Assembly (NCBI GenBank): GCA_905221615.1
Contig: CAJNDT010005423.1
Coordinates: forward strand, 459,001 to 523,000
Reading direction: 5' to 3'
Source: Symbiodinium sp. CCMP2592
Taxonomy: Eukaryota; Sar; Dinophyceae; Suessiales; Symbiodiniaceae
Length of the DNA stretch: 64,000 nt
A program made the translations under genes and the position numbers. Positions 28,593 through 47,449 of the stretch are shown one piece after another. The notes below the pieces were generated by a model. It was not told where the DNA came from. It saw only the letters and a list, made by a program, of their open reading frames with translations, and searched no databases. Numbering within the stretch: position 1 is the first letter of the stretch; each line of letters starts with the position of its first letter.

Positions 28593-28673
28593 AGCCTCTC
28601 GGCTCAGGAAAGGTCAGGCTAGTACAGTTGCCTTTTTCCTTTCTTGCCATGGCATTTGTCAGCGCCTGAGCAG

Positions 28674-28694
28674 TCCCGGTCCCAATTCCGGGAG
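28674..28694 (+). repeat. Conserved LINE leader block
   Basis: TCCCGGTCCCAATTCCGGGA is a partly palindromic block that also occurs in the LINE B leader (13598-13620), in the orphan leader (15231-15253), and in weaker form at 5409-5430. Confidence 0.45.
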
Positions 28695-28777
28695 GGAGTA
28701 TTAGATTTACGGCTCTCTAACATCTCCCAGAGGTGAGGGTTGTCGGTATTGCGAAGCCGACAGGAGCCGTACTCAAC

Positions 28778-29933
28778 ATGAGTGCTGCGAAACAGCCTAG
28801 TGGTTCGACCAAGCATCATCCCGTTCCTAAAGGGAAGGGTAAACGCTCTTATCAAAGGGCAGCACGTAAAGCTCTGCTTGAAGGTAGTGCGGTCTACAAG
28901 GGAAAGACGATGTCGTCAACAGAGCTTGGAGTTGCTCCGGCACATGTAAAGCCCACCAATCCCGGCAGAAGGACTCGGCCTTCGAAATTTACAGAAGATA
29001 AGAATCTCAGCTATCTATCCTGGAACGCAGGATCTCTCACCACAGCAGTTTGGGAAGAGTTACTCTCCGTACTGCAAAGTGCCGCATTTCAGGATGTGAA
29101 GCTGGTAGCAATTCAGGAAACACACTGGAGGGGCTCTTGGCAATTCAGCAAGTCAGGCTGGCACGTGATCAGCTCTGGTTCCACAGGGGTGAAGGGAGCC
29201 GGGGTCCTCATAATGGTGCACTCCACGCTGTGCAAGTCACACGATCTTCGCTACAACGAGGTTGTTCCAGGAAGAGTTCTCCAGGTCCGGGTGCCGAGCA
29301 ACGGCATCTCACTGGACGTCTTCAGCTGCTATCAATACGTTTGGCGCTCTAAGGAGACAGTCGCTCAGAATAAGGAAACCCGGAAGCTGACCCTTCACGC
29401 CCTAAGTAAGTCCATCCGAGCTGTTCCCAATCGCAACACTCTCCTTGTGCTAGGAGATTTTAACTCCTCGCTCAAAACCGACAACAAACTCACGTAGGGC
29501 CATGCACGATCCAGGCTTGCAGACTCGGGCATCGCGGATCTAAGGATCTCCAGACCCTACTGTCGGAGCACCAGCTAGTCGCAACCAACACTTGGGGAGT
29601 GCATAGACCAGCCACCCACGTACAAGGCAACTCTGTTTCACAGATTGACTTCTCGTTTGTCAGGATTGCACAGTCCCAGGGCCCCGCCAGGTTTTTGCCG
29701 GCCACTAAGGACCTTCCCAGTTGCATCCTGGAGGGATGGTAGTAGGCATTTTCCCCTTCTTGGTAAACTGAGGCACAGCAGGAGATACTCCGCCCAAGCC
29801 TCAAAACTCTATGACCAGCAGGCAATGGAGGATTGCTACAGACACCGTTCCCCGAAAATACAGGCATTTGCCAGGGAGGTAGACTCCCTCCTTCAGGATC
29901 ATCCCCAAACCTGGCAGAGTCTCCATCAAGCAA
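28778..29933 (+). pseudogene. LINE C endonuclease domain, frameshifted
   Basis: From ATG 28778 the frame is open to TAG 29495-29497 and shows an APE-type EEP endonuclease: LSYLSWNAGSL, AIQETHWRG, GAGVLIMV, VVPGRVLQV, GDFNSSL. The match to LINE B then continues in other frames. Around 29580-29660 frame 1 reads LVATNTWGV and SQIDFSFV; from about 29720 the original frame returns with SRHFPLLGKLRHS. So at least two compensating shifts and a stop have accumulated. The coding sequence runs directly into the left target duplication at 29928-29933 and continues in phase after the right one. Confidence 0.8.
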
Positions 29934-29944
29934 TTAGGTTGCCA
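29928..29944. repeat. Left target duplication and terminal inverted repeat
   Basis: AAGCAA (29928-29933) followed by TTAGGTTGCCA (29934-29944). Confidence 0.85.
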
Positions 29945-29979
29945 TTCCTACTGGCTTAAAATAATCATATCTGGCGCCA

Positions 29980-30003
29980 TTAGTGTGCATTAGCGTGCGT
30001 TAG
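29980..30003. repeat. Three inverted TTAG boxes at 10-bp spacing
   Basis: TTAG occurs at 29980, 29990 and 30000, each in a context like GCRTTAGYGYG. This is the reverse complement of the unit of the 17-copy array at 33991-34160 and lies 46 bases inside the left end. It is probably a subterminal transposase-binding site (inference). Confidence 0.6.
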
Positions 30004-30009
30004 CGCCCG

Positions 30010-30603
30010 TCGTCCTGGGGCCTTCTGCAAAGCAACACTACACATCAAAAAAGAATGACCTGCTGGGGCACAATCCAATTCACAGCGAAGGATTGCCAAG
30101 CTAAGCTAGCAAACAAGCAAGTAATCAAGGATTGGCAGCCACATAAGCACAGATGCATGACATCCAGTCGTCGCAGCATTAAGAACATCCACACAAGTTC
30201 GCTCACACGGACTCGGATTCGGAAGTCGGCATCCTGTTTGCTCATTTCTCCCGTCTTTGAGCCAGTTTGAGCCTTCGAGCCAAACGATTAAGGGCTGGGG
30301 CTTAGGATTTAGGATGTATAGGGTTCGATTCTTGGACTTTAAGGCTGAAAGCAGGGCTCAACCGATTAAGCTTGAGAAATGAAGGGCTGTTGAATGCGAT
30401 GCTTGTTCTGCGGCTTTCTTGGACCTCGCGGAGAGCGGTCGGAAGATACCGCCCGCACTCCCAGGTCCTCTCGAAGGGGTCCACCCACTCCGAGCCAGCA
30501 ATCTCAATCGTTTTGTGCACAATGTTTCGAGCCCTCTGATCGCAGGCATAGGGCAGCAAACTCCACAATTTTCCCCGCTCTGACTCTGGTGGCTGCCCTG
30601 TCT
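30010..30603. other. Left subterminal region of the transposon, no gene recognised
   Basis: Short frames on both strands only. GGGCTTAGGATTTAGG-like sequence near 30293 is weakly telomere-like. Confidence 0.4.
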
Positions 30604-31947
30604 TTACACAATGTCGTCTGTATCGCCAAGCAATGCCTCGGCTTCGGCCAATCGCTGCCGTTTGGCAGTGGGTTCAGCATCCTTGACAGCAGAAGCCTGG
30701 GTTTTCTGGGATTCCTCAATATTCGATGCTGCGGGTTTCAACTTCAGAAACCGCAGCTCATATTTGCGCTTCTGCCCTTTACACGGGCCTTCTTTCAACT
30801 CCACTTTGGCGTTGGAGCCGGCCAACAGAGCTATCACAACCCCTAGCTTCTGATCATAATTGTCCTTGTTTTTGAAAGCACTCGTAATCACTTCGCAGCC
30901 GACGACGATGTCATCAGCCGCTGTGGCCTTCGTCTTCTGTTCCTTCTCCGGCTCCTTATGGTTGAGATTTCAGGCTAGCTCAAACGCAACATTCAACCCA
31001 ACTCTTTCGCAACCGCTAATCGGCAACACAAACGTCAGGCAACACACCTCGGGCCTGACATTGAGCCGACTCCTTGTGCACGGGATCAGCAACTGGCTTC
31101 ACCGTCTTGTCGGGCATGACATCGCTAGAAGCAGGCTTGGACGGCTTCTGGTAGGGGCGTAAGAACTGCAAAGATGGAAAAGCCTTCTCCAAGTCCTGTT
31201 TTCAAGGGAGCAGTGCAAATCAAAGGGCTGCAAACCGGAAGTGTTGTTCCTACCGGGTCCTACCGGCTGTTGCACCCGCCAAACAAGCATACGTATTCAC
31301 GGCTGGTAAGAGATCTTATACTTCGGGCTTAGGGCTTAGGGCCTTAGACTGGGCACCAACAGCACGACACAGTGGAGCCTTGTTCGACACAGCATCACAA
31401 AGAAGTTGAAGCTTGTCTTTGAAGGTCTCCGTTTTGAGCTTGTCATAGTTCACCACTGTGCCACTGCTCGGGAGAATACCGAGCTTCGCAGCACTGAGAT
31501 CGAGATGAACCTGCTTGGCAAGCTGCAGCACGTCGTCGTCGTCGCCGGCCACCGTAAGCAACTTGTTGTAAAGCTGCAACAAACTTCGGGCCACGGGGCT
31601 CGCGACTTTCTTGATTGCATCGAGGTCCCGCACAACGAAAGCGGAGGCATTGATGAATTGCGAGCCTGTCACAGTCTTCCAGGCCATGTCCTTGTCAAGC
31701 CACATAGCCAGGGACAACAGCTTCCGAGCCATAGACACCTTCTGCGGCTCGGCAGGAACCTCGCACAAGGCCACATGGACATGTTTTGTGGTGTGGCTCA
31801 CTACATCAAGAGTTGCCGCAACTGCTTCCTAGCAGCCAGGTCGTCAAACCACTCCTGCAGGAGCACCACCCTCTTCGGATCCTGCGAGTCGCCAATGGGA
31901 AAGCTCTTATCAGCAATTTGCGCGGCTTTCGGGCTTTCTCGGGCCAT
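30604..31947 (-). CDS. Transposon gene C, unknown function (exons not resolved)
   Basis: A likely start is ATG 31947 (MARESPKAAQIADKSF), opening 48 codons that include VLLQEWFDDLAARKQLRQ. Further open pieces on the same strand are 31801-31316 (helical, with LLSLAMWLDKDMAWK, LLQLYNKLLTVAGDDDD and LQLLCDAVSNKA) and 30891-30604 (lysine-rich, with GQKRKYELRFLKLKP and EPTAKRQRLAEAEALL, possibly a nuclear-localisation region). They are probably exons of one helical, nuclear accessory protein, but I could not place the introns and recognise no family. A 42-bp palindrome pair lies just upstream (31985-32070). Confidence 0.45.
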
Positions 31948-31984
31948 ATCTTAAGTTCCCGATAAGGCAAGTATATCGGCCTAA

Positions 31985-32070
31985 GGCGGAATCTCAGGTC
32001 TTTACTGGAAAATGCACAATTCCGCCGAGGCGGAATCTCTGGTTTTTACTGAAAAACCGTCAATTCCACC
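31985..32070. repeat. Pair of 42-bp palindromic repeats
   Basis: Two 42-bp units (31985-32026 and 32029-32070), each beginning GGCGGAATC and ending AATTCCGCC or AATTCCACC. A second internal inverted repeat such as GGTTTTTACTGAAAAACC sits in the middle. The same design occurs at 35823-35909. They lie between genes B and C. Confidence 0.85.
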
Positions 32071-33767
32071 GGACGTGATTTTCTGAAAACAAGGCAGAGC
32101 AGTCCTCCATCAAATAAGTCACCTTTGTCTTCAAAGGTGCGGCACCGAACACGGTGGCAGCGATCTGCAAGGATTCGTTCTTGGCAAGAAAGCTGTTTTG
32201 AAGAAGTTGCTGCACCCGTGTGGCCCGCTGCTCATCCGATTCCTGCACTGAGCTCTTGGCCTGGCCAAGCTGAGCCAGGGCCGATGCTTCTTGGAAGCTG
32301 CAGAAAAGAGAGCTTTTTCGCAGTCGGGCCCACGCATGTAGACCCAGGAACTGCAAGCGTGCTTCGCAACCTTGCGGCTCCTTCGGGTCCACCTCGCTGA
32401 GGACATGGATTGCTTTCCCGAGCTCAGGAATGAAACCCTCCATGTGCACCATCTCCTTGAAAATGCAGCCAAACATCTGAAGGTGAGCATAAGCTTCCTT
32501 GTTATCCAGCAACGTCTTCGCAACGGTTTTGATCACTTTGGCACTGTAGGGGCTCACCGTGGAAGCGAACCTGCCAGAAAGCAGAACGTGCATCCTTGAA
32601 GCAGCATGGTCTAGACCTAATAGGCATCTATCAAGGGCAACCATCCCGCCCAAAACATGTGCTATATCCAGACGCAGCAACGTAGCCTTGTCAGCACAAT
32701 TCTTCCACTGGTGCAAGACGTGGTCTTTGTACCGGCGAAACCATTCTGCAGCTTCGTCGTATCCTCGCCACGAAAACAAAGCCGGCACCAAACTGCAACA
32801 ACACGAACTGTTATGGGGCCGACTGTAGCTACAAATGGCAAACCTGACATAGACCCATGAGTCGTTCAAACTGACTTGCCTGCGGGATTAGCAGAAGACT
32901 ACGGGCGCTTGTTCCTTCCCTGGGGCCACAATACAATTCTTTTAGAAATGTGTTACGGGACCGACATAGGAAGCCAAAACGAGGCCAATCCGCCTCCGCG
33001 CCGCCACCATATGTTTCAGAAATTTTCAGAATAAGCTCCACACTAAACGCTACCAAAACACGTTGCTCATTCAAGACCTTGCAAATCTCTGCCGCAATGT
33101 ACTGAGCCATCTTCTCCTCGTCGTTCTCATCGCTTGAATGAGCTGACAACGAGCGAGTGGCTGCAGTTGCTTCAGGCTGTGTCTGCACCGGCTGGGGCTC
33201 TGGAGTCACTGCTGCAGGGCTGGGAACACTCGGGGCTTCTGGTACAACAGGGCTCGCCGGCAGTTCCGAATCAGCTGCAGACGTCGCAGTTGGGTCGACG
33301 CTCCTTTCTTTGGTCACGGCGGTTTCATGCACCAACGTGCCACACGGAAGTTCCGACCGAGGCACTCCCTGATCGAAGAACCAGAACTCCTCGGCCGCGA
33401 GGTGCACGGGGAGGTCTTCAACACTGCTGGCAGGCACTACGAAGTTGGCCCACTTTTTTGGAACCTGTAGCAGCTGCTGACGTGGCACTACCCAGAGCAT
33501 CTGCTTGAGGGATGAGGATGTCGTCACCGTCGTCCTGTAGGAAAGAAAAAGTCTTTGAGACACTCGTGCACTCGGACCACCCTCGTCCTTGACGACTTTG
33601 TTGATTGCACACCACAGCTTGATGGATTCCTCATTCGTCTTCACTGACGGATCCTTCCTGCCCCATTCCGCAAGGCATCTTTCCGCTTTGCGACGATCTT
33701 CAGCAGATGCATCCCGATCGACCGCAAGTGCTTTCTGAACGGCGCTGCCAGAGACAAACTTGGCCAT
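32060..33767 (-). CDS. Transposon gene B, unknown helical protein (at least two exons)
   Basis: ATG 33767 opens a 312-codon frame (MAKFVSGSAVQKALAVDRD, then a proline/serine/threonine-rich linker with PVVPEAPSVPSPAAVTPEP, then helical AQYIAAEICKVLNEQRVLVA). After a frame change near 32840, consistent with an intron ending GTTGCAG, coding continues as LVPALFSWRGYDEAAEWF, LLRLDIAHVLGGMVALDRC and a long alpha-helical tail to about 32060. No catalytic motif is seen. Its position inside the transposon and its orientation with the transposase suggest an accessory transposition factor (inference). Confidence 0.5.
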
Positions 33768-33990
33768 GGGGAGGGAGCGGAGGGCTCAAGACGGCAAGTG
33801 CAATCCGACTGGACAGCTACCTAGAGCGGGCAAAGAGACCTGCAAGATTCACAGGCAACTGGGAGGCACTGACGGCTGATGGATTCCCCGGCAACGGAGC
33901 CGGCTGATATGCCTGAGTCTGCAGGAGTTAAAACTAGCTGAACAGCAAATACAACTTAAATTGACTACAACGGCACTGATTCAGTAAGAG

Positions 33991-34160
33991 AAACTAAGCC
34001 GCGCTAAACAACACTAATTTACGCTAAATTCCGCTAAATGACACTAAATAGCGCTAATAGCCGCTAATTTGCTCTAAGGTGCGCTATTTAAGCACTATTC
34101 CTCACTAAACTGCACTAATCCACACTAAATTGCACTATTTGCCGCTACATTACATTAAAC
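33991..34160. repeat. 17-unit CTAA array with 10-bp period
   Basis: Seventeen successive blocks of the form NRCRCTAAWN follow one another every 10 bases, with a single 11-base step near 34087. Examples: GCGCTAAACA, ACGCTAAATT, CCGCTAAATG, ACACTAAATA, TGCACTAATC, CACACTAAAT. Only the CTA(A) core is strictly kept, and the other positions vary freely. The array lies between two transposon genes, and its unit reappears inverted near the left end (29980-30003). Confidence 0.9.
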
Positions 34161-34265
34161 AGAATGCCGCTGTCGTCTTTGAAGGCCTGTGCAGTGGCAC
34201 AAGTCTCTCCTGAACTCCTGTTTTGACCGGCGTTGCGTGCTGCATGACACAGCTCAACGGTATCC

Positions 34266-35636
34266 TTAGCCTGCTCTTTGCAAAGCCTGCGGAGCCCAAG
34301 ATCGAATCAATGCATCTGCACGAGCGCACCCTGTGGTGCCTGCGGGTGCACCAAGTCGCGAAATGTCACGTTGCAGATCCAGCAGTTCTGCATCCCACCA
34401 TCGCCGTCTTTCCGGAACGTGGGCAAGCCATGCCGGCCGATTCGAACGACCGAGAGCCCAAGCTCGCAGCAGCAAATACGTTATCTGAGGGCTGTCCGGG
34501 TTGCAATCGTAATCTCGCACAGTAACGGATTTAGACATCTCGCTCCTACCTAAACCTTCCGGCAAGGCGCAGCACCATCGCGGGCGTAACCTGATTTTCA
34601 CATGGTCCCCTTTTCTGCGCCTCACATAATCCTCCAAAGAGAAATAGCCGTTCGAATACTCTGCAACAACATTGGTTCCGCCATCAGCCTCGCCCGCCGG
34701 GCAATCCTCGGGCAAAACGCAGGCAGCTTCCTCGGCCTCGAGGACTGCGTCGGTTTCAGCATCAGACGCCAGAGACTCCTGGCTGTCGGAGCCTTCGTCA
34801 AGACCTGCTTCGGCCTGTAGATCGGCCGCATCCTGGAATTCCGGATCTGACGCCTCGTCCTGTTTCCACTGCCTTTTTCGTGACTGCAGGGCGATGCGGT
34901 CGATGCCCAAGACTCGAAAACGAAGAGCCTTCGCAGACAACAACATACCATAGCCAATCTCCAGCCGGTGTACGTCTGCATCGTCAACAACATCTCCAAC
35001 CCATTCTTGCACAGCCGCGACCACAGGCGTGAGACCGTTCCTGAACACAGAATCCAAGGCAAGTTCGTACTCCATGTGGCCTGCCCCATGTACTTGCAAG
35101 GCATACCCATGACCGAGCACAGGTCGCGCACCAAGCACGAAGAAACCATGTTTTTCCTGCAGGAGCTTTTTCACCCACGTGGGTGAAGACGGCTTTTCTT
35201 TGCAAGGTGAAAGCCGAGCCACCACTTTCATGTCAGCATGAACATCAGACGGCTTCAGCCGATGCGAGACACATTTCCGTGCCGTGTGGCTTGTGCGCAA
35301 AGCCTCGCGCCACACAGCCTCGTTCTCTTCAAGCCAATTCAACCACTGCTTGTTCGTCATCGGGAGTGTTCCATCTGGCGTCAGAGCTTGCAGTGCAGCT
35401 CGCGCAGCAGCTCTCCTGGAAGAAGCTTGGGCTTCGAGCTGCGACCGGTTCTCTTGTAGGTACTCTCTGAACGCCGTGATGTTCCCCTCTTGGCGGGCGG
35501 CACCAAACCCATCATGACGAGGAAACAGGTGCGGCACATTCTGCATGGCCAAAGCACTCGCCGAGATCTTGCAAGACCGCTTCACAAGACGAAGTGTCTC
35601 TGATTGCTTGACCGTGTTCCCTTCTCGTCGCAGCCT
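34266..35636 (-). CDS. Transposon ORF D (separate protein or C-terminal part of the transposase)
   Basis: Open frame from about 35636 (after TACAG on the minus strand) to the stop at 34266. It contains ISASALAMQNVPHLFPRHDG, a WLNWLEENEAVWREAL segment, an acidic stretch (EGSDSQESLASDAETD) and near the end LLLRAWALGRSNRPAWL. The last block resembles C-terminal blocks I associate with the same dinoflagellate transposase type (recollection, unverified). A palindrome pair lies between this ORF and the transposase exons, so it may be its own gene. Confidence 0.45.
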   Translation of the reverse strand, partial: RLRREGNTVKQSETLRLVKRSCKISASALAMQNVPHLFPRHDGFGAARQEGNITAFREYLQENRSQLEAQASSRRAAARAALQALTPDGTLPMTNKQWLNWLEENEAVWREALRTSHTARKCVSHRLKPSDVHADMKVVARLSPCKEKPSSPTWVKKLLQEKHGFFVLGARPVLGHGYALQVHGAGHMEYELALDSVFRNGLTPVVAAVQEWVGDVVDDADVHRLEIGYGMLLSAKALRFRVLGIDRIALQSRKRQWKQDEASDPEFQDAADLQAEAGLDEGSDSQESLASDAETDAVLEAEEAACVLPEDCPAGEADGGTNVVAEYSNGYFSLEDYVRRRKGDHVKIRLRPRWCCALPEGLGRSEMSKSVTVRDYDCNPDSPQITYLLLRAWALGRSNRPAWLAHVPERRRWWDAELLDLQRDISRLGAPAGTTGCARADALIRSWAPQALQRAG

Positions 35637-35822
35637 GTACCTTGGTCGGCGGCGGGATGGGGCTTAAGTTGAAGCGTGCAGCAGAAGGTTGCCTTCGGGG
35701 CTTCGGTGCCACTGCCCAAATGCGATTGCAGGGGTAACTGGTGGCCTTGTTGGGGTCTTAAGGAGGTCCTGAATGTCGTGCTGAGTTGAGAGGACCGGCT
35801 TGCCTCGACAAGATTCTCTGGG

Positions 35823-35909
35823 GGCGGAATCTAGGGTTTTTCTAGAAATACGGACAATTCCGCCAACGGCGGAATCCAGGGTTTTCGTGGAAAAAACGAA
35901 AATTCCGCT
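35823..35909. repeat. Second pair of 42-bp palindromic repeats
   Basis: Units 35823-35864 and 35868-35909 start GGCGGAATC and end AATTCCGCC or AATTCCGCT, like the pair at 31985-32070, 3.8 kb away. The cores are GGGTTTTTCTAGAAA and GGGTTTTCGTGGAAAA. Confidence 0.85.
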
Positions 35910-35982
35910 GACTAACAGTGGCGGATCTTTCCGAGCAGGCCGCGAGGTTCCGCTGTTCATCAATGACGTAATCGCATGCAAG

Positions 35983-38387: not shown

Positions 38388-38399
38388 GCCATGGCACAC

Positions 38400-38740
38400 T
38401 CAGTGACATCGGGAAATTGTGGGCATTTACCTAGCGGGTGGAATCAGCCGTTTCCAACGTGCCAACTTTCAAATCAACACAAACCAGCTTGACGATGGAA
38501 CTGTTCGTTTACATCATGTGACACATTTTGCAGCTATAGACCTACTGAATGCCCGAGAGGCGAGCACGCACAGCGTCAGACACGTCTGCATTGCTGACAT
38601 ATTCGACAGACCAAACAGAATACACATCAATCCTCATCAAGCCCTGGTGCCAAAAAACTATCAAGCAACACCATCTGCTGCCCGATCCCGGCCTTTAACC
38701 AATCACAAAACCATCGGACGGACGTGTTCTAGGATTAGTG
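38400..38740. other. Right subterminal region of the transposon
   Basis: Lies upstream of the transposase start and should hold its promoter. A CTAA/TTAG-type box (GGATTAGTGTTAAGCC) is at 38733-38747, and otherwise nothing is recognisable. Confidence 0.4.
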
Positions 38741-38755
38741 TTAAGCCTCTGTGTT

Positions 38756-38772
38756 TGGCAACCTAAAAGCAA
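38756..38772. repeat. Right terminal inverted repeat and target duplication
   Basis: TGGCAACCTAA (38756-38766) followed by AAGCAA (38767-38772). Confidence 0.85.
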
Positions 38773-40668
38773 TGAACTCAGCTCTAGCGACTCACTTTCC
38801 CAAGAGAAAGGAAGCAGCACAAAGATCAGATCTCAGCATCTGGGAAGAGCGCTCTGTGTTGCGCTCACTCCCACTAGCAGTCAAGGTCTTAGCAGAGTTC
38901 TTGCCCGAGCTGCAGGTCCGTATGGTGTTCCGATGCTGGTGTTCGTTCTCCCAGCAAAGTGCACAGGCGAGGGAAGCAAAGCGTCACAAGCAGGAGCGGC
39001 GGCGGCAGGAAATAGATGAACAACTCGAGCAGGCAGAGCTTAAGTCCAAACAGGACGGGAGTCATTCCCTTTACAAGGTAATCAAGCGCTTCAGGTCGGG
39101 GAGGCCCCAGGAAAGAGTTCAGCTTCGTGATTCTGAGGGTCGCTTCCTTACTGCCAAGGAAGAAAGAAGACAATTAGAGGAATATTCCCTAGACCTGTTT
39201 GGAGCAGGGGGTGACTTCCCGCTTTCAGGGATACAAAACATCCTGCACATCACTGAGCACGAAGTTCAAGAACAGCTTGGCACAATTAAGCTTGGCAACG
39301 CAGTTCCCAAAGAGAGTCCTCCCGCAGTAGCGTGGCGCTCCCTAGGTCCCCAAGCAATCCGGCTAATCTCGGACACCCTTAATAGGGAAGTCACTGCAGG
39401 AAGGCTCTCGGACAGTGTCACCTCGTCACAGATCTCCTGGCTCCCAAAGCCTCCCAAGAAGCCAGACAAACCAACCTCACTCCGTCCGATCGGGGGTGAT
39501 AGCGCCTGAGGGTAAGGTCCTAGCCGGACTCGTGAGGAAGAGACTCAAGTCTACCCTCCAGCAAGCAATGACCGGCGTCTCTCAGTTCGGCTTCGTCCCA
39601 GGCAGGGGCACAGAGGAGGCTATCTGCAAGGCCCTCACACATGTGGACCAGGCCAGGTTCAGACAGGCCCTCACCACTAGGGCTGCAGGTAAGGGACAAC
39701 AGGGGCTCAAGCTCAGAGGCAGTCTCACCATGAGCGTGGACATGAGCAAAGCTTTTGACACTGTAAACAGGCTGCGATTAAGAGAGGCCCTGGAAGCCGA
39801 ACAAGCAGATCCTCTTCTGATAGAGGTGGTAGGCCATCTCCACATCAAAGCCTTGTACAAGATGACAGCCAGCGATCAGAGCTTTGAGATAGCCACACGC
39901 AGGGGAATCAAGCAGGGATGTAAGCTAGCACCCTCTTTATTCGCCTTTGCATCAGGGCTTCTCTTTAGGAAGCTCTCTGGGAAAATCAGCCCAGCAGAAC
40001 TAGTGAAGCTCCTCACAATGTACGCTGACGATAGCTTGATCCAGTCGCATTTCGACTCTGAGGCCGGCCTCATGACAGCACTAGGGTACTGCGACCTGCT
40101 TCTGGATCAGCTGGTAGAGCTTGGGTTCAAGGTCAATCCGTCCAAGTCAGCAATTCTGCTACAGCTGCAAGGGGGCTCAGCCTCGACCATTAGGAAGAAA
40201 CTCTTTCGCCAGGTCGAGGGAGAGAAGTATGTTGAACTCCCTTCGGGCAGGCTGATATCGCTGCGCTATCAGGTCCCATACTTGGGGGTCATTCTTTCTT
40301 ATCACGACTATGAAATGAAGACTCTCAAACATCGGCTGTCATCCAGTAAGCTTGCAATGTCAGAAGTAGCCCATGCAGTTCGGAACCACCGAGTCTTATC
40401 AGACAGACGTCGTCTGTCGATTTGGACAATAACTGCGTGGGCCTCTGCTCTGTATGCACTCCACGTGGTGGGGATGACACAGCAGGGATTGCAAAAGCTC
40501 CATTCACACATGATGTACCAACTCAGATTCGTCCTGCGGAGTTACTCCCAGGAAACGAAGGAATCAAACCAGGAGTTACTCCGGAGATTACGGATTCCTC
40601 ACGTGAAGGAGCAGCTGCAAAAGAGAATGACCCAGTTTATAAAGAGACAGCAACACTCCGATCCCTAG
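38773..40668 (+). pseudogene. LINE C reverse transcriptase, one frameshift
   Basis: Directly after the right target duplication the LINE frame continues with MNSALATHFPKRK, a basic helical linker (AKRHKQERRRQEID) and the RT fingers (SWLPKPPKKPDKP, SLRPIG). A one-base insertion in GGGGGT near 39497 shifts to the frame that carries the rest: VIAPEGKVLAGLV, FGFVPGRGTEEAI, SVDMSKAFDTV, IKQGCKLAPSLF, the catalytic MYADDSL, PSKSAILL and the thumb with YLGVILSYHDYE. A TAG at 40666-40668 ends the frame before the zinc fingers. The closest relative in this window is LINE B. Confidence 0.85.
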
Positions 40669-42292
40669 CTTCTCCCACACTATAAGTTGCGTGCTGAGGC
40701 AGTTAGCCAGGCATTGGAAGGCCTCTCCACGGACTTCTCCTCGCAACCCGTGTAGGATAGGCTTCTGACCTGCGGTGAATGTGGAGCATGTCTCTCTGGC
40801 ACCGGAGCACTCCGTCGCCACCTGCAGAAGGCTCACCCAGATTCTCAGCAGTGCTTGAAAGGACCCAAATTTGATCCTATCTTGCATTCAATGCCAGGGT
40901 CAGCAACTTGCATCGCCTGTCGAGCAACATTCCGAACAGTGTTTTATCTTCGCAAACATGTCGAAGCATCTACCTGCCCTAGAGTAGAGCTTTTGCTTAG
41001 ACAGCAGGAAGAGCTACCCTTAGAAGCACAGAACCGGATCTCACTCGTTGAAAGTCTACAGTCTGATGCCCAGGACAATCCAGAAGGCGCCGCTCGAAAT
41101 CCGGCGTTCCATGATTACCTGATGGAACACTGTGCACTCTGTGGTCAGGTCCTTGTAGGCCAGAAAGGAGCCAAACAGCACTTAAACAAGCAGCATCCTG
41201 AGGTGATGGCCAAGCTGGAGAAAACTCTCCAACCAAGACTCAATCAATTCAAGGTCTTCTTCCACAAAGGAGATAGCTGTCGATACTGCAAACTTCGAGT
41301 GGATGCCCCGGGTAGACATGCTCAGCAGTGCGTTCCATTACTGCAGGTGCACGTACTGCAGGAGGTAGCGCGCCAGCAGCTCAGCAAGCAGCCCCGCGAA
41401 TATACTCGAGCAAAGTCCACGGCATCGGCGAATACAGTCACAAAGAAGCCTTCAGATTCAACGCCAGGAATTCCCCACCCCGTGTTTAGACTGGAAGGCT
41501 TTCTCCTGCTAGCCAATACTCGCAACCACTGCTATGCCAACTCAGGTCTACAGTGTCTCCACTGGCTATCTGATCTCAGAGGCGCCTTTCCAAGAGGCAT
41601 CTCGGATCAGTCAGCTTGCGAGAATAACCCCTGAACACAGAGCCTTCTCGGAGCTCACCATGGGCTGGCTCTTTGACGGAGGCCAGCACGACTCTGCTGA
41701 GTTCCTGCAGCAAGTGTTTCGGAATCTCTCTGCATCAAGATTCGGACAGTGGGAAACTAGAGCCTCAGTACCGGAAGGTGCGATAGTGGATGAAGAAGGG
41801 GGCTCTCCCATTCATCTTGCCACGGCGATCAAGACCAACCTACAGGACATGCTAGTGGCATGGTCGTCTCAGGAGTGCTCATGTGCTCTCATAGAAGCTG
41901 CACAGCAGGTGTGCTTAGCCTTGCCGAGATTCGCAGGTGAAGCTAAGGATCACACTCGCATCACAATTCCACAGCAAGTCCAGATCCCTGTCTTCCTGGA
42001 TCACACATCCCGAGTTTCCTTCTGTACCTACACAGTAGAGGCAGTGATCATTCACTTAGGAATGGAGCCCACTAGTGGCCATTACCGTGCAGCTGTGCGC
42101 ACAGCAGATGCCTGGTATGTTGGTGACGACTCTCACCCCCCTAGTCCCTGTATCCTCGAAGATCCCCTGCTGCAAGAAAATAGCTACGTCATTTTCCTAG
42201 CTCGCAGCGCCGTCTCTCACGAGCCCCAGGACGTAGACAATCTCCCGAGTAATGTCTCTGCAAGAGTTCTTCCAGCGAGCATCGATGGATGA
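40669..42292 (+). pseudogene. LINE C zinc fingers and ubiquitin-specific protease domain
   Basis: In the frame of the RT, but after TAG 40666-40668 and TAG 40753-40755, come CGECGACLSGTGALRRHLQ, CIACRATF, CALCGQVL and CRYCKLRV. This is the same three C2H2 plus one CCHC fingers as in elements A and B. The USP follows: Cys box NHCYANSGLQCL (Cys codon 41530-41532), then a one-base frame change near 41600, GGQHDSAEFLQQV, and His box TSGHYRAAV (His codon 42080-42082), ending at 42292. The catalytic Cys and His are kept although the reading frame is damaged. Confidence 0.8.
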
Positions 42293-43151
42293 GAGCTCTG
42301 CCCCTAAACGGGGAGACGCAGGTCCGTCAGGAGGAGATTCTTCCCTGAAGCGACAGCGTGGTGGAGTTACTCCCCAGCAAGGAGGCAGAGGACAACAGCG
42401 AGGGGGCAAAAGCAGGGGACGAGGAAACGGAGGCCGAGGGAAAGGAGCAGCCAGAAACCAAAATGGGAACAGTGGCAACACTCAGCAGGGACAAGGCAAT
42501 GTATCGAAAGAGCTGATCAATGCCATAGCGCGGCTAGCACTCCGACATGACGAGCAAATCACAGCCCTTGTCTCGGACGTGACGTTCGTCTCGTATGTTC
42601 GAACAGAAGATCATTCTATTCTTACTCACCTCTACGAAGAATCTCAGCGAGTCAAGAACAGCCCCATAGGGATCCCTATCAAGGCAGCTCTGACGTTGAA
42701 GCTCCTCCGTGAACTTAAGGAGAGACTGGTGACTACCAGCCGGGATAAAAGCATACAGGAGCGCCTGCAGAATGATGAGCTGATGACGCCGGATGGCGAT
42801 TGGCCGTTCCTGGAGTGGAGTCCCACTGATCAGAAGATGATAGAGTCGGTGGAAGATCCTCTCACTACGGCTCAAGTTGTTTCAGGACTGGGGGACGCAA
42901 TCACCCGAATCTCCTCCGATCCGGAACACATCAAGCTGTTCAAAACTTCGCGGCCATTGGCGGAGAGCATGACGGGAGGACCGGTCCGAATCCAGATCCA
43001 GCTGTTAAGCAGGGCGGCCACATCTGATTTGCAGGACACCTTGCAGTCCCTAGTCGGTAATACCGCCTTTTCGCTCATAAATGCAGATTTTCAGCGAATG
43101 GGAACTCAGCCCTCGCCGCTGGTTCGCCAGATTCGCGATTTGCTCTCCTGA
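42252..43151 (+). CDS. LINE C ORF, RGG-rich N-terminus with LRH[DE] domain
   Basis: ATG 42252 overlaps the end of the USP frame by 41 bases in another phase. The N-terminal third is glycine/arginine-rich (QRGGVTPQQGGRG, RGGKSRGRGNGGRGKG), typical of RNA-binding RGG boxes. The rest is helical: LARLALRHDEQITA-like, VSYVRTEDH, LTLKLLRELKERL. Element A carries a similar LRH[DE] protein (1-563), also overlapping its preceding ORF. I infer an element-encoded RNA-binding protein, perhaps functionally like LINE ORF1, although it lies downstream of the RT here. Confidence 0.65.
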   Translation: MSLQEFFQRASMDESSAPKRGDAGPSGGDSSLKRQRGGVTPQQGGRGQQRGGKSRGRGNGGRGKGAARNQNGNSGNTQQGQGNVSKELINAIARLALRHDEQITALVSDVTFVSYVRTEDHSILTHLYEESQRVKNSPIGIPIKAALTLKLLRELKERLVTTSRDKSIQERLQNDELMTPDGDWPFLEWSPTDQKMIESVEDPLTTAQVVSGLGDAITRISSDPEHIKLFKTSRPLAESMTGGPVRIQIQLLSRAATSDLQDTLQSLVGNTAFSLINADFQRMGTQPSPLVRQIRDLLS

Positions 43152-43349
43152 TCTCTTCCGGAGGAATAGATCACTGATCGGACTTGCCCCACAGGCGGGC
43201 CGGCCTGGTGCTAAGAGCTAAGTCGAAAAGTAACCCCCTTAGAAGAGGAGCTACTCCCACCCAGTACACAATCGCGAGGAGCCTGTGGCATCTTTCGACG
43301 AGCTGCGAGGAGGCCCTCCCGCAGAAGACTCTGCATGATGTAGGGACCT

Positions 43350-43958
43350 TTGGTAGAGCATCACAGACGTTCCTCTTTTGGACAAAGCGTCGACCAGACG
43401 CCGACTCACTTGGCTATGATGTTGCTTCCGACGATAGCAGCCGTCCACTATCTGCACCAGAAGTCCCAAGGTTTGGAGATACTCCCCTGGGCGGTGCTCA
43501 CAGAGCTGCGAGAGAGAGTGAAGGCACTTGGGCTTATCACTAAGGATGAGATGATCCTAAATCTTTCCGTGGAGTTACTCCCGGAAAGTGGGGTCCGGCA
43601 GGTGATCAAGCACTTGCATGTCATCTCTGGCATCGACGAGTGGGGGCAGATCAGGTACCGACGGCGAAAAGTCCTGACCGAGCAGGGCTTAGAATATCTT
43701 ACCCTGGCTCGCATCAACTCTGGGGAACTGGTGGCCCCAGAAAGCATCTCCCTCCACAGATTCGACCTCGACTCCCTGGAGAGAGAGACTCACATAGTCT
43801 CATACGTGAGTAAATTCTTACCGGTCGACACCAGAACAGTCTACCTGGAGGAGGTGGAGGCTCTGAGGGCCACGTTCTTCGCCGAAGATCGCAAATTGAA
43901 TTTGGCTACATCGATGTGGGATGTGTCGTACAATCGTCTCATGGCAGCCTCTTCCTGA
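43350..43958 (+). CDS. LINE C ORF, unknown
   Basis: Open for about 200 codons after TAG 43341; the true start is uncertain. It contains LPTIAAVHYLHQKSQG, LNLSVELLPESGVRQVI, HLHVISGIDEWGQIRYRRRK and FDLDSLERETHIVSYV. No family is recognised. The GGAGNNNCTCC palindrome encodes LEILP near 43475 and VELLP near 43571 in this frame. Confidence 0.5.
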   Translation: MVEHHRRSSFGQSVDQTPTHLAMMLLPTIAAVHYLHQKSQGLEILPWAVLTELRERVKALGLITKDEMILNLSVELLPESGVRQVIKHLHVISGIDEWGQIRYRRRKVLTEQGLEYLTLARINSGELVAPESISLHRFDLDSLERETHIVSYVSKFLPVDTRTVYLEEVEALRATFFAEDRKLNLATSMWDVSYNRLMAASS

Positions 43959-43972
43959 GCCAGACGCCTTGC

Positions 43973-44180
43973 GGAGATGCTCCCTTAGGAGGAGACACTC
44001 CCCAACTTGGAGGAGTTTCTCTCCTCGCCATGTGTGTACAGCTGGTGGAGTTTCTCCCCAGGGGTTTTTGACAGTAGGAGAGCATCAGGTGGAGCTTCTC
44101 CCCTCGTCTAGGTGGAGTTTCTCCCCCAACGAGGGATGTATAGCTGGTGGAGGTTCTCCCCAGGGGTTTTTAACAGCTCT
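43973..44180 (+). repeat. Non-coding cluster of GGAGNNNCTCC palindromes
   Basis: Six perfect copies (43973, 43991, 44047, 44091, 44114, 44149) and one near-copy (44012) lie in about 190 bases between two ORFs. Two of them sit in a 40-base direct repeat (TGTACAGCTGGTGGAG and TGTATAGCTGGTGGAG, each followed by CTCCCCAGGGGTTTTT) about 102 bases apart. Confidence 0.9.
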
Positions 44181-44371
44181 GAGGAGTGCAGACTCAAAAA
44201 TGTCCCATCATCTGCCAAGTGCAACTCGGCGCCTTTAGCAAAACGCCTCCACTGATTCTGATGCAGGTCCCTCGTCGTGGTGGCCTGGTGCTCGGATGGC
44301 TAATCACCTGTCAAGTGCCTGAAATTCAGCTTGTGACAACACATCGCAGGTCTCTCTCAAAAGCCAGCAAC

Positions 44372-45454
44372 ATGTCACGACCAGAGTCAACTCAAGATCC
44401 CTCGTTTCAGGATGAGTATGTGGATTTCTGCCAGCGACGGATACGTGATCAACTTCCGCATGTCACATATAGAATTTTTTTGCGCCAGTGGAGGCGCTCT
44501 GCTCGTGCTCACGGCGAAAGTTATCCAGCACATAAAGGTGCCTCAAAAGGCACTGGTGGATCGGAAGAGCCGGGAAGTGGAAAGGGTGGAGTCACTCCCC
44601 CTCCTCCTCCTTCCAAAAAGAGAAGCACCGGGCAAAGTGAGGGTGGAGATACTCCCCCTGCAGCAAAGGCCAAGAGTGGAGATCCTCCCTCAGGGGACCT
44701 CTCTTCACAACAGGTCACCGATGAACGAACTGAAGCGGCCCTCCAAGTACTTCAGTCTGCGGGGTATACTCCTTTTCCCAGTCTGATCACAGCCTGCGAC
44801 GGCTCCATCACCGACCTGAACAACCACAGAATCATGGTGACAGTGACCCAGCAACTCCGAGATGGCCTCGATCAGGCGGAGAGACTGACCCCTGAGATCG
44901 CCAATGCCCTTCTCGAGACCTTCTTAGCTTCCCGCCGGGGCCTGGCCAATGAATCCCTGCAGTCGAAGCTTGGTTTCCCAACAGCGGAGGATAATGGATG
45001 GTTTAGATTTGAGTACTCTTCTCCTAACATACTTCCTGCCGGAGACAGCGAGGTTGCGTTCCACGGTACACACCTGGAATGTTTGCATGGGATACTAGCC
45101 ACAGGAAGACTTCTACCTTCGACGCCGGATCTCTCAGGCACAAGAAGCTTCGAGGACCGCCCAGGAGTGTATCTCCACAAGCTTTCAAACAGGCATCTCG
45201 CGGCCGGATACAGTTGCCTGGTGAGGATTGGACCTCGCCACATATTCGTCCGGCCCATGATCGAGGCGGAAGCCGCTCACTCTGGATGGCAAAAACGTGG
45301 CAAGAAAACAAATCAACTAATATACTCCTTTGATGCAGTGAAAATCCGAGCGCTGCTGCTCCAAATCTCAACAAAGGAGACTCTCTCCTTAGGCGATTAC
45401 CTCCGCGAGTGGAGCGGAATGCTTGAGATTCCGCTTCGACAGGCTCGTGCCTAG
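44372..45454 (+). CDS. LINE C ORF with ADP-ribosyltransferase-like C-terminus
   Basis: The frame is open from 44186; the first plausible ATG after the palindrome cluster is 44372 (MSRPESTQDPSFQDEYVDF). A proline/lysine-rich linker follows (GGVTPPPPPSKKRS, GGDTPPAAKAKSGDPP), each GG[VD][TP]P being encoded by a GGAGNNNCTCC palindrome. The C-terminal 150 residues contain AFHGTHLECLHGILATGRLLP, GVYLHKLSNRHLAAGY and RHIFVRPMIEAE. This resembles the H-G-T loop and the later tyrosine block of the ADP-ribosyltransferase/PARP fold, but I cannot find a clear third catalytic glutamate. The ORF overlaps the next one by about 30 bases. Confidence 0.5.
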   Translation: MSRPESTQDPSFQDEYVDFCQRRIRDQLPHVTYRIFLRQWRRSARAHGESYPAHKGASKGTGGSEEPGSGKGGVTPPPPPSKKRSTGQSEGGDTPPAAKAKSGDPPSGDLSSQQVTDERTEAALQVLQSAGYTPFPSLITACDGSITDLNNHRIMVTVTQQLRDGLDQAERLTPEIANALLETFLASRRGLANESLQSKLGFPTAEDNGWFRFEYSSPNILPAGDSEVAFHGTHLECLHGILATGRLLPSTPDLSGTRSFEDRPGVYLHKLSNRHLAAGYSCLVRIGPRHIFVRPMIEAEAAHSGWQKRGKKTNQLIYSFDAVKIRALLLQISTKETLSLGDYLREWSGMLEIPLRQARA

Positions 45455-46334
45455 TGAAGCGGCCTCGTCAGATCGAGGAAAGGAAGGAGGAGTTCCTCCC
45501 CTTCCAGCTCCAGAGCCAGCGTCAGGGTCAAAGGGTGGAGTTCCTCCCCCGACTGAGATCGTAGAGATCACTGACAACAGCACAGCCACACCAAGGAGCT
45601 CCTCTATTGTGGCATGGGAGGGTGAACCAGGCGACCTAGGTGAATATTGCACAGCCTCCATGGATCCAGAGACCCGCTTCTCGTTCGAAGTATCCAAAGC
45701 GCTGGCAGCATGCCTCAGACACGGACACAGACCGTACATCAATGTCACTTCGGCAGGCTGGGCCAAGCTAGAGGACGTGGTTTCATGGCCAAGAGTGCAG
45801 AACCAGAACGCCACGGCAGGCGACCTCATGGAGATTGTTCGTCGTAACACCAAAGGCCGGTACGAGTTGGGAGACTGCCAAGGCACGAAGTACATCAGGG
45901 CACTGCAAGGACATTCTCGCTCGGACGTGAACTCGACAGAGGTGTTAGAGGAACTCACGGAGGAGATGCTCCCCGGAATGCTCTATCACGGCACCTACTG
46001 GTCCTTGTACGACCCAATACGTCAACAAGGCATTCTGCCACAAAACAAGATCTCCAAGGGCCGCGGCAAAGGAGGACGTGGCAGGGAGGGACGGCAGCAT
46101 ATCCATTTCGTGGCGGACAGCGATTATGGGAAACCAGGCGTCTCCGGCTTCAGAGAGAGCTCGTCCATGCTGGTGGCGGTAAACCCTCGCAAGGCCTCAC
46201 AGGCAGGGGTGAAGTTTTTCCGTAGCAAGAACGGCGTGATTCTCACCCCAACTGAAGTGCCTCCTTCTGTCATAGAGTACTATCAGAGTCTGAAATCAGG
46301 CACTAAGTACGGAGGCGACAATAGGCCGCTCTGA
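45423..46334 (+). CDS. RNA 2'-phosphotransferase (Tpt1/KptA family) in the LINE C cassette
   Basis: The frame opens at 45423 (TTG; no early ATG, so the start may be later, at about 45660) and runs to 46334. A disordered N-terminus (EGGVPPLPAPEPASG, KGGVPPPTEIV) precedes a full Tpt1/KptA domain: SKALAACLRHG, SAGWAKLEDVV, IRALQGHSRSD, MLYHGTYWSLYDPIRQQG, QHIHFVAD, GVSGFRESSSMLVAVN and FFRSKNGVILTPTEVP. The catalytic set known for this family, Arg-His (R99/H100), Arg (R159) and Arg (R244), is present. Tpt1 removes the 2'-phosphate left by fungal/plant-type RNA ligases, passing it to NAD+. The frame has no break, so it appears under selection or recently acquired. A Tpt1 domain next to a LINE is, as far as I know, unreported. 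Confidence 0.85.
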   Translation: MRFRFDRLVPSEAASSDRGKEGGVPPLPAPEPASGSKGGVPPPTEIVEITDNSTATPRSSSIVAWEGEPGDLGEYCTASMDPETRFSFEVSKALAACLRHGHRPYINVTSAGWAKLEDVVSWPRVQNQNATAGDLMEIVRRNTKGRYELGDCQGTKYIRALQGHSRSDVNSTEVLEELTEEMLPGMLYHGTYWSLYDPIRQQGILPQNKISKGRGKGGRGREGRQHIHFVADSDYGKPGVSGFRESSSMLVAVNPRKASQAGVKFFRSKNGVILTPTEVPPSVIEYYQSLKSGTKYGGDNRPL

Positions 46335-46603
46335 CACCAGAAAGAGAGCCCCGCCAAATGGTGGAGTCGCTCCCCAAGCAGACTTTGCAGCCGCTCAGAC
46401 AACAAATCGGAGTCTAAGTTAAGGGTTAACTCAGCATGCATCACCTGCCAGCAACCAAGTATCCCGAGGTCAGATCCACAATTCGATGCAGAGCCTCGGG
46501 CCCAGTCCTTGCAAGTGAACTGCCAGCCAAAGGATCACAAAAAAAGCAACTTATGCATGTCTGACACAGGCTCAACTCACCAGCTGTCTTGATTCCAGTA
46601 GCC
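46335..46603 (+). other. Spacer in the LINE C cassette
   Basis: No ORF of note. One GGAGTCGCTCC palindrome lies at 46363-46373. Confidence 0.5.
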
Positions 46604-47113
46604 ATGCCCGAAACTCCTAAGAAAAGTGGCACCAGAGCGAACTCTCGCACCCCTCCACCAGTGAGACGTCGTCCTCACCTTCCCAGGTCGCCGCCATCCA
46701 GTGATGCTATCCGGGAGTCAGACTCAGAAGAAGCAGTGGCACCCAAGGCTGATGCTCCTAAGGGCCCGCCGCCGCCGGTGCCTGTCAATCTGTCGGGAAG
46801 TGGATCCAGCACGGATCTGGCACCAGGAGGTACAAGTAAGGCATCTGGAGCTCCAGTCAAAGGTGGAATCCCAGGAGGAGTCCCTCCCCTGGGACCCCCA
46901 CCAAAAGCTGTGACCTCCACGATCTCCCATCCGGGAACTGGAGAACTCTATGTCACGAGCACTGGTCCGGCAGGAGTTACTCCGCCATCAGCGAACACCA
47001 ACAACGAGTTGGAGAGGGCGCCTGGCATACCTCTACTGAGCATCTCACTGCCTCATCGCCTCTTCTACAACATAGAGCTTGTGGTTCGCACTGAGCCATC
47101 ACAGCGAGTCTAG
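46604..47113 (+). CDS. LINE C ORF, proline-rich disordered protein
   Basis: ATG 46604 opens 169 codons: MPETPKKSGTRANSRTPPP, a serine/proline-rich middle (KGPPPPVPVNLSGSGSS), KGGIPGGVPPLGPPPK and PAGVTPPSANTNN (both GV[TP]P blocks encoded by the palindrome), and a hydrophobic tail LLSISLPHRLFYNIELVV. No family is recognised. It is the last ORF before the (TAG)n tract. Confidence 0.45.
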   Translation: MPETPKKSGTRANSRTPPPVRRRPHLPRSPPSSDAIRESDSEEAVAPKADAPKGPPPPVPVNLSGSGSSTDLAPGGTSKASGAPVKGGIPGGVPPLGPPPKAVTSTISHPGTGELYVTSTGPAGVTPPSANTNNELERAPGIPLLSISLPHRLFYNIELVVRTEPSQRV

Positions 47114-47446
47114 AGTACTCCTTCGCGACAGCAGCTGAGTGCAAAATGTTCTGCTGCCAATCAGCCAGTGATACATTGCAACCAAGCCGGTTAGCTTTTA
47201 GCTAGTGCCGAAATCTTAACTCGCATAAGACTCTGAAGACACATTCCCTTCCCACTTCACAGCTTGCAGCCTTGAGGGGCGGAGCGTGTGCAAGTGCTGT
47301 GTTGAGGCACGGCTTGCCGTGAAGAATGACCGCGCAAGTAGTAAGCAGGGCACTAGGTCGATCCCTCGCAAAGCGTGGACGAAAAGTTTCACCACAGACA
47401 GTCCTCCCCCGCTGCGTGTGAATGAAAATGTAATTGTAGTAGTCGT
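47114..47446 (+). other. Presumed 3' untranslated region of LINE C
   Basis: No ORF or repeat is recognised between the last ORF and the TAG tract. No palindrome copy was seen after 46983. Confidence 0.4.
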
Positions 47447-47449
47447 ACT

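Follow-up and report, generated by a model that had tools for sequence, protein, structure and literature searches.

The window analysed here, a stretch of 64,000 nucleotides from Symbiodinium sp. CCMP2592, harbors a copy of LINE C, a numerous multi-ORF LINE of about 10 kb, which contains in this order a weak endonuclease match, a reverse transcriptase (RT), a zinc finger, UCH and four further ORFs, one of which carries a Tpt1/KptA domain (Table 1). This copy is interrupted by a nested insertion, while position 29934 is joined straight to about 38767 in the relatives. The 5' part could be aligned at 94-98% in seven of the eight fetched relatives, the eighth fetch ending short of the region. 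The RVT_1 match (Pfam, E=1.9e-19) supplies the RT domain expected of a non-LTR retrotransposon, and the location of the endonuclease N-terminal to the RT agrees with a LINE, though weakly, because the Exo_endo_phos match (E=0.0027, 17.9 bits) stays below the curated cut-off of 24.5; this part shares 31% identity over 271 aa with the endonuclease part of LINE A. As in other LINEs, the two ends appear dissimilar by eye and lack long terminal repeats, and a 13-base repeat flanks the element at 28580 and 47429.

Among the downstream genes, ORF-B is free of stops in every one of the 131 matches scored in the genome from which the window comes, but has no recognised domain (no Pfam match at E<=1), and its single-sequence structure model is unusable (pLDDT 46.8). 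ORF-D is a single frame of 665 aa in copies C10a, C10b and C13, containing the Tpt1/KptA domain (Pfam, E=2.6e-39) and perhaps another ADP-ribosyltransferase-like stretch (E=0.15); a PDB search with its N-terminal part gave a best E of 0.15, which is not significant. No capsid domain was recognised by Pfam, and no relatives of the KptA part were confirmed in the viral contigs searched.

Table 1. Features of LINE C in the window, with hairpins named after the first position of their core.
Feature	Coordinates	Strand	Evidence or status
LINE C 5' part (start, endonuclease domain)	28592..29934	+	94-98% to relatives; Exo_endo_phos
Bulged hairpin, core 28928	28924..28941	+	relatives: exact 4/7, one mismatch 1/7; fixed-flank word finds no match in remaining 2/7
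Bulged hairpin, core 29781	29778..29793	+	exact in 7/7 relatives having this part
Nested insertion	29935..38766	.	missing from site-covering relatives; no motif copies
LINE C 3' part (RT, C2H2, UCH, ORF-B to ORF-E, 3' end)	38767..47430	+	Pfam RVT_1, UCH, PTS_2-RNA
Bulged hairpin, core 40538, 5 outer bp	40532..40553	+	pairing, alignment, single fold
Bulged hairpin, core 40572, 2 outer bp	40569..40584	+	pairing, alignment
ORF-B	42252..43148	+	299 aa from first Met; RGG-rich N-terminus; candidate binder
One-mismatch core	42333..42343	+	exact in 7/7 aligned relatives
Bulged hairpin, core 42363	42359..42376	+	pairing, alignment, single fold
Weak bulged hairpin, core 43247, 1 outer bp	43245..43258	+	pairing, alignment
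Bulged hairpin, core 43309	43303..43324	+	pairing, alignment, single fold
ORF-C	43344..43958	+	open reading frame
Core 43475	43475..43485	+	one-base-bulge register gives no outer pair in window
Bulged hairpin, core 43571, 7 outer bp	43563..43588	+	pairing, alignment, single fold
Weak bulged hairpin, core 43973, 1 outer bp, spacer	43971..43984	+	pairing, alignment
Bulged hairpin, core 43991, 2 outer bp, spacer	43988..44003	+	missing from 4 distant copies
One-mismatch core, spacer	44012..44022	+	exact in 7/7 aligned relatives
Bulged hairpin, core 44047, spacer	44042..44061	+	pairing, alignment, single fold
Bulged hairpin, core 44091, spacer	44087..44104	+	pairing, alignment
Bulged hairpin, core 44114, 2 outer bp, spacer	44111..44126	+	pairing, alignment
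Bulged hairpin, core 44149, spacer	44144..44163	+	pairing, alignment, single fold
ORF-D (PARP-like, weak; Tpt1/KptA)	44183..46334	+	two ORFs in window
One-mismatch core	44490..44500	+	exact in 5/6 aligned relatives; pairs 1-5 without outer pairing
Bulged hairpin, core 44588	44583..44602	+	pairing, alignment, single fold
Bulged hairpin, core 44645	44640..44659	+	pairing, alignment
Bulged hairpin, core 44678	44674..44691	+	pairing, alignment
Bulged hairpin, core 45489, 6 outer bp	45482..45505	+	pairing, alignment, single fold
Bulged hairpin, core 45537	45533..45550	+	pairing, alignment
Bulged hairpin, core 45962, within Tpt1/KptA match	45958..45975	+	Pfam, pairing, alignment
Bulged hairpin, core 46363, spacer	46359..46376	+	pairing, alignment
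ORF-E, proline-rich	46565..47113	+	open reading frame
Bulged hairpin, core 46877, 7 outer bp	46869..46894	+	pairing, alignment, single fold
Bulged hairpin, core 46973	46969..46986	+	pairing, alignment, single fold

The word GGAGNNNCTCC occurs 27 times in exact form in the window, compared with a mean of 1.27 and a maximum of 4 in 100 dinucleotide shuffles, so that the excess reported in a first-pass annotation of this DNA persists against shuffled controls. All 23 positions listed there are exact copies; together with the core at 43309 (GGAGGCCCTCC), which forms a good hairpin, they constitute the set of 24 analysed in LINE C, while the copies at 48778, 50433 and 52042 represent one repeated unit of a tandem array outside the element. 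The clustering of 21 copies within 6.5 kb was described correctly except for the count, which is 22 between 40538 and 46983 with 43309 added, and the claimed absence from the nested insert and LINE A is confirmed, with no copy in 29935-38766 or in 1-28591, where LINE A lies. Codon or composition bias is ruled out as the source of the swarm, since a Markov null for 38767-47427 yields a mean of 0.44 copies (maximum 4 in 1000) and the coding parts contain 13 cores versus 2.5 expected after shuffling synonymous codons within the ORFs (maximum 8 in 1000). The whole genome (1.098 Gb) contains 31,062 copies versus 29,471 of the reversed pattern, a control that is itself common and renders this ratio rough; the resulting density of about 1 per 35 kb, as opposed to 1 per 0.4 kb in the swarm region, shows that the high density is local, and rules out a word generally dense in the genome. 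Pairs of the word spaced by 5-35 bases are in excess genome-wide (2120 vs 114 in the reversed control), and the close-pair places listed, the first by contig order, comprise 50 distinct places in 8 stretches; all eight regions fetched over them match LINE C.

As judged from the flanking sequences, GGAGNNNCTCC forms the apex of a larger hairpin, consisting in 5' to 3' order of an outer stem, one unpaired 5' base, GGAG, a loop of three bases, CTCC and the other side of the outer stem. The 4-bp GGAG/CTCC core is invariant, the loop is variable, and the outer stem typically comprises 2-7 bp of free sequence. The previously described 4-bp stem with a 3-base loop is thus correct for the core but incomplete, missing the 5' bulge and the self-complementary outer stem. 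The unpaired base is T or A in 22 of 24 copies and G in none. The outer stems vary between the copies, yet each is self-complementary, and the hairpins are oriented along the sense strand of the element. With the one-base 5' bulge, 77 Watson-Crick pairs are formed in the 24 outer stems, whereas shuffling the flanks among the copies gives a mean of 28.7 and a maximum of 47 (none of 2000 reaching 77), and the unbulged and 3'-bulged registers give no Watson-Crick pairs at all (2 with G-U in the former). The covariation score among the sites is 0.292 compared to 0.082 (sd 0.022) after shuffling, a value reached in 0 of 500 shuffles, and establishes the bulged structure. Outer pairs 1-5 are formed in 23, 21, 18, 12 and 8 of the 24 copies, respectively (G-U included), and are scarce in seven of the cores, with none in one (43475), one in two and two in four. 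All ten hairpins folded singly adopt the bulged core, while in the minimum-energy fold of the 224-base spacer most of the small hairpins give way to longer pairings. A structure-only motif with any core is ruled out, the excess being confined to GGAG: between 38767 and 47427, 17 hairpins have this form and three or more outer bp, and 16 of them carry the GGAG core. No comparable swarm was found elsewhere among the 193 listed loci with triples of the word (75 in viral contigs, at least 118 in genome contigs): the highest number of distinct flanks is 10, at a locus with at most one bulged copy, and the locus richest in bulged copies (10) has 4 distinct flanks. An Rfam 15 search of the window gave no match over the gathering threshold.

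The core is under strong purifying selection in coding and non-coding DNA. Relative to four distant copies with about 79-89% identity, the core (eight bases per site) differs in 5 of 696 comparisons, as opposed to 70 of 264 for the loop and 5220 of 32353 (16%) for the background, although these counts are not independent, as the four copies are mutually close. Between the window and one copy, the stems are changed at 0 of 31 third codon positions (versus 651 of 2424) and at 2 of 70 non-coding positions (versus 222 of 818), and 200 shifts of the site set gave a lowest change of 12%, compared to 1.1% at the real sites. This conservation in spacers and third codon positions bears out the first-pass view that selection acts on nucleic-acid structure rather than on a peptide. 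A peptide repeat is ruled out, as the motif indeed occurs in several frames and also fills spacers. In the two subfamilies of the element, 24 sites are common at homologous positions, site 43991 differs, and the one-mismatch cores at 42333, 44012 and 44490, mismatched or slightly changed in the window, are exact in most or all aligned relatives (Table 1); maintenance by purifying selection therefore fits better than spread. The alignment of nine copies in the 3' part contains 27 hairpin columns, two of which resemble misalignment or overlap, and only one two-sided pair-keeping change was seen between the subfamilies. Some spacer units seem locally duplicated by eye. From the palindromic core and the apparent duplications, a site acting in duplex DNA as a palindrome or cruciform, or a mini-element that spreads, might be envisaged, but this is extremely unlikely, because outer pairing requires the sense-strand bulge and is lost with a 3' bulge, the positions are mostly homologous between the subfamilies and the bare word is not similarly dense genome-wide. 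A plain palindrome or cruciform is ruled out by the lack of any Watson-Crick outer pair unless bulged, and the proliferating mini-element suggested earlier is not supported, in view of the homologous positions of most copies: apart from the difference at 43991, the aligned relatives do not exhibit clean, MITE-like insertions at non-homologous places.

The swarm may be regarded as a set of about 25 hairpins by which a protein, most likely an element-encoded one, recognises the sense RNA of the LINE, an interpretation we hold with about even confidence. As judged from the element, all hairpins would be present in one RNA. The protein would recognise the core stem together with the bulge, the many sites per RNA would allow multivalent binding, and the coated RNA would stay with its own proteins and be delivered to the target for reverse transcription. 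The hairpins may be RNA-level sites for a sequence- and structure-specific protein with a role in RNP assembly or cis-preference. Control of translation or processing, with spacer hairpins recruiting a factor by which the internal ORFs of a polycistronic RNA are translated or cut into single-gene units, appears unlikely: the single element carries five ORFs, hairpins occur in the B-C, C-D and D-E spacers, densely before ORF-C, ORF-D and ORF-E, and several adjoin ORF starts, but copies are also located within the coding sequence of the endonuclease, the end of the RT, ORF-C and KptA, and the spacing from hairpin to start is irregular by eye.

The distribution of the hairpins among LINE-like sequences bears on the identity of the binder. 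LINE A and two further stretches (L034 and L035) lack any bulged hairpin with a GGAG core as well as any match (E<=0.01) to ORF-B, ORF-C, the N-terminal part of ORF-D or ORF-E; this link between hairpins and ORF-B to ORF-E covers these three stretches, two of them fetched in part (4-5 kb). Because the few other LINE-like stretches checked contain neither ORF-B, ORF-C and ORF-E nor the hairpins, the binder is most likely element-encoded, the RGG-rich ORF-B being the first candidate. Multivalent cis elements read by host factors are known in viruses, and the element has yielded no binder, but a host RNA-binding protein reading the hairpins for export, stability or escape from silencing seems doubtful in view of their absence from the other LINE-like stretches checked in the same genome. 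Cleavage or modification of the RNA at the hairpins, with products handled by the Tpt1/KptA domain, would suit the presence of this domain and of the possible second ADP-ribosyltransferase-like stretch in ORF-D; it is nevertheless very unlikely, since L034 and L035 bear KptA without such hairpins, and the ORFs read through the hairpins, making their removal unnecessary.

A deletion derivative of LINE C (5.4 kb, 25 occurrences of its junction word) has lost most of ORF-B to ORF-E but retains ten hairpins, four of them within some 130 bases left between two deletions. Random segments of the block keep at least four cores at 97 of 4505 positions (129 bases) or 26 of 4523 (110 bases), values which were computed after the piece had been seen and are only suggestive. 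The derivative represents a natural case for the study of trans mobilisation. It is possible, though tentative, that ORF-B or a neighbour acts as a sequence-specific coat-like protein on the approximately 25 hairpins and packages the RNA in viral style into a dedicated particle or condensate, with the derivative as a passenger in trans, comparable to defective interfering genomes.

Symbiodinium retrotransposons with an added DNA methyltransferase, SymbioLINE and SymbioDIRS, are described in the main text of PMC5890265, where the SymbioLINE methyltransferase is mostly encoded in an ORF preceding that of the RT, and where the words hairpin, ubiquitin and phosphotransferase do not occur. LINE C resembles SymbioLINE, as described there, in combining endonuclease, RT and an added enzyme domain, but harbors UCH and a downstream block with Tpt1/KptA instead of a methyltransferase (PMC5890265). 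No title dealing with LINE hairpins of this type came up in a literature search, which covered subscription journals thinly.

The usual view is that the proteins of a LINE hold its RNA largely irrespective of sequence except at the 3' end, where a single stem-loop is read by the RT of the element. The hairpins of LINE C are similar in being LINE RNA hairpins with a proposed element-encoded reader, but about 25 of them are internal and the last 447 bases are devoid of any core. They share with the Q-beta operator a loop of three bases that is separated from the bulge by 4 bp. RNA-phage coat-protein operators are likewise hairpins, about 20 bases long and with one stem residue unpaired (PMC3561173), but occur once per phage genome as opposed to about 25 sites in LINE C; the likeness is one of form, and no sequence relation is claimed. 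With 24 stem-loops in the window sharing a motif, LINE C also resembles the dispersed packaging signals of single-stranded RNA viruses, in which many stem-loops of one RNA present a common motif, and its unpaired 5'-side stem base corresponds to the A in the 5' bulge of the MS2 stem-loop (PMC6281560). Unlike MS2-type signals with their apical-loop motif, the LINE C hairpins fix the stem sequence while the loop is the most variable part, and they are carried by a non-LTR retrotransposon in which no capsid protein was recognised rather than by an RNA virus. If the proposed recognition is true, the array would constitute a direct code for cis-preference or packaging within the coding DNA of a LINE, and would tie such elements to RNA viruses and their dispersed packaging signals.

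LINE C carries, on the sense strand of one LINE family, a single repeated bulged hairpin with a fixed stem and a free loop, which is under strong selection. The 11-base core GGAGNNNCTCC (GGAG, a three-base loop and CTCC; hairpins are named by the start of the core) is found at 27 places in the window, where 1.27 would be expected, and these include all 23 copies listed in the first-pass annotation. Positions 39367-47113 hold 22 exact and 11 one-mismatch copies, compared to 0.7 and 3.3, respectively, predicted from the remaining window sequence. For 38767-47427, a Markov null yields a mean of 0.44 core words (maximum 4 in 1000), and synonymous-codon shuffling gives 2.5 cores (maximum 8) for the ORF parts, which contain 13, so the excess survives control for composition and codon use. 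The high density is also particular to this locus, as judged from 31,062 copies of the bare word genome-wide (1.098 Gb) and 29,471 of a reversed control. Clustered pairs of the word occur in the genome at 50 distinct places among the matches listed, all 50 lying in LINE C copies, and no comparable hairpin array was found in the viral collection or among the matches listed from the prokaryote collection.

Pairing was analyzed in 24 copies (22 from the LINE C 3' part plus 28928 and 29781); the remaining three window copies lie inside a tandem array (see table). The 4-bp stem with a 3-base loop proposed previously is present as the core, but the unit is longer and includes a one-base bulge on the 5' side and an outer stem. 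When the flanks are lined up, most cores top this outer stem once one 5'-side base is skipped, a register in which 77 Watson-Crick pairs form, compared to 28.7 (maximum 47 in 2000 shuffles) after swapping flanks between copies. The unskipped register gives 0 Watson-Crick outer pairs in the 24 copies (2 with G-U) and the 3'-side skip 0 outer pairs; two registers with one or two further bases skipped on both sides contain more pairs than any shuffle (57 and 36) because both read the same outer stem, and all others tested pair at chance level. Allowing G-U, the first to fifth outer pairs are present in 23, 21, 18, 12, and 8 of the 24 copies, respectively, with G-C, C-G, A-T, and T-A among the pair types. 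Outer pairing is missing at core 43475, limited to a single pair at two cores and to two pairs at four. At the skipped position, 13 copies have T, 9 have A, 2 have C and none has G; a requirement that this base stay unpaired with the one directly 3' of the core (C in 20, G in 4) would lead to such a distribution. Ten of ten hairpins folded singly show the bulged core. The best fold of 224 bases from the dense spacer replaces most small hairpins by longer pairings, which counts against a simple hairpin picture there.

Eight fetched LINE C copies from the same genome form two groups over the 3' part, a nearer one with 93-98% identity to the window (parts of C2c 86-88%) and a farther one consisting of C2b, C10a, and C13 (82-83%) and C10b (89%, then 79%). 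Omitting positions where the relative has a gap, the four farther copies differ at 5/696 core-stem, 70/264 loop, and 5220/32353 other positions, and the nearer group at 1/373, 11/141, and 958/18905, respectively. Between the window and C2b, stems differ at 2/174 positions, compared to a lowest value of 12% in 200 shifts of the site set (-300 to +300). At third codon positions, 0/31 differ in stems and 651/2424 elsewhere, and in non-coding sequence 2/70 and 222/818. The core is thus kept at the nucleotide level regardless of coding content, bearing out the earlier proposal of selection on nucleic acid rather than peptide. Of the 24 sites that the two groups have in common, 22 in one group and 23 in the other form the first outer pair, while farther pairs are gained and lost with one two-sided pair-keeping change, so covariation is strong among sites and scarce between subfamilies. 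Sites 42333, 44012, and 44490 (the last without outer pairing) are exact in 7/7, 7/7, and 5/6 aligned relatives but altered in the window; site 43991 is missing in the farther group, and C2b has an altered 44114. In the 5' part, site 29781 is exact in 7/7 relatives, and 28928 is exact in 4/7, has one mismatch in 1/7 and gave no hit with a fixed-flank word in 2/7. Four regions (L021, L025, L026, and L027, on G000:C2, C10, and C13) differ from the window by about 17% in the 3' part and share 95-98% identity with it over the 5' part (28.6-29.9 kb), as if the subfamilies had exchanged parts.

The domain order of LINE C is endonuclease (weak), RT, zinc finger, and UCH, followed by ORF-B, ORF-C, ORF-D (44183-46334), which contains a Tpt1/KptA domain, and ORF-E. 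Same-genome relatives join 29934 to about 38767, and the intervening 8.8 kb are therefore an insertion, in which six of the long ORFs were tested and gave no Pfam match at E<=0.01; frameshifts and this insertion disrupt the window copy. A genomic search with ORF-B gave 4668 first-look candidates and 131 scored matches, all 131 stop-free (87-100% identity), and an exact word from the LINE C 3' end has 210 occurrences; these counts indicate a large family in which ORF-B is kept open. Most copies whose ends were inspected lie in microsatellite-like surroundings, suggesting targeted insertion, and the window copy is flanked by a 13-base repeat. The microsatellite types differ between copies (TTG, TAG, CTATTA; window and flanks of L022 and L026-L029).

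Coordinates of features in the window and in two further regions of the genome
Feature	Position	Strand	Remarks
LINE A	8639-13498	-	Long open frames, endonuclease-RT and zinc-finger-UCH
Microsatellite-like flanks of LINE C	28550-28592, 47431-47520		
LINE C, 5' part	28592-29934	+	
Insertion	29935-38766		Long ORFs on minus strand
LINE C, 3' part	38767-47430	+	
Stretch in ORF-D	44183-45451		Possible second ADP-ribosyltransferase-like stretch; PARP E=0.15 only
Tandem array	47826-52655		18- and 11-base units, higher-order period near 1.6 kb
C2a (L020)	G000:C2:14000-23900		Deleted LINE C
Tpt1/KptA outside LINE C context	L034 1849-4122		ORF upstream of LINE-like endonuclease stretch; also in L035

C2a is a 5.4-kb internally deleted LINE C with junctions near 6446 and 6575. 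The two deletions leave only a minor part of ORF-B and little or nothing of ORF-C to ORF-E, and ten hairpin cores are retained, four of them within the ~130-base piece between both deletions; a random segment of that size has four or more cores at 97/4505 positions (computed post hoc). An exact word across a C2a junction occurs 25 times in the genome, so the deleted form has multiplied since arising, either by retrotransposition that complete copies assisted or because larger stretches were duplicated.

LINE A shares the endonuclease, RT, zinc finger, and UCH layout of LINE C (25-39% amino-acid identity in matched pieces) and contains no hairpin of the LINE C type, in agreement with the first-pass annotation. 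Of two KptA-bearing stretches, L034, where KptA lies upstream of the endonuclease of a LINE, contains a single core word lacking an outer stem, and L035 contains none. LINE A, L034, and L035 (the latter two compared over 5 and 4 kb only) showed no match at E<=0.01 to ORF-B, ORF-C, the N-terminal part of ORF-D, or ORF-E. Stem and bulge may be read by a protein, and the joint absence of hairpins and of ORF-B, ORF-C, and ORF-E from these three sequences suggests, as a guess from few families, that the binder is probably among the products of these ORFs, the RGG-rich ORF-B being the first candidate. None of the papers listed by a literature search was seen to report a comparable hairpin array from a LINE. 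Viruses are known to use this principle, and a LINE as carrier and a code written in the stem are, to our knowledge, new. An operator hairpin is among the matters described in PMC3561173. The LINE C hairpins resemble the dispersed packaging signals of RNA viruses, as portrayed in part of PMC6281560, in presenting many equal sites in one RNA, which would argue for multivalent protein binding in LINE C as well.
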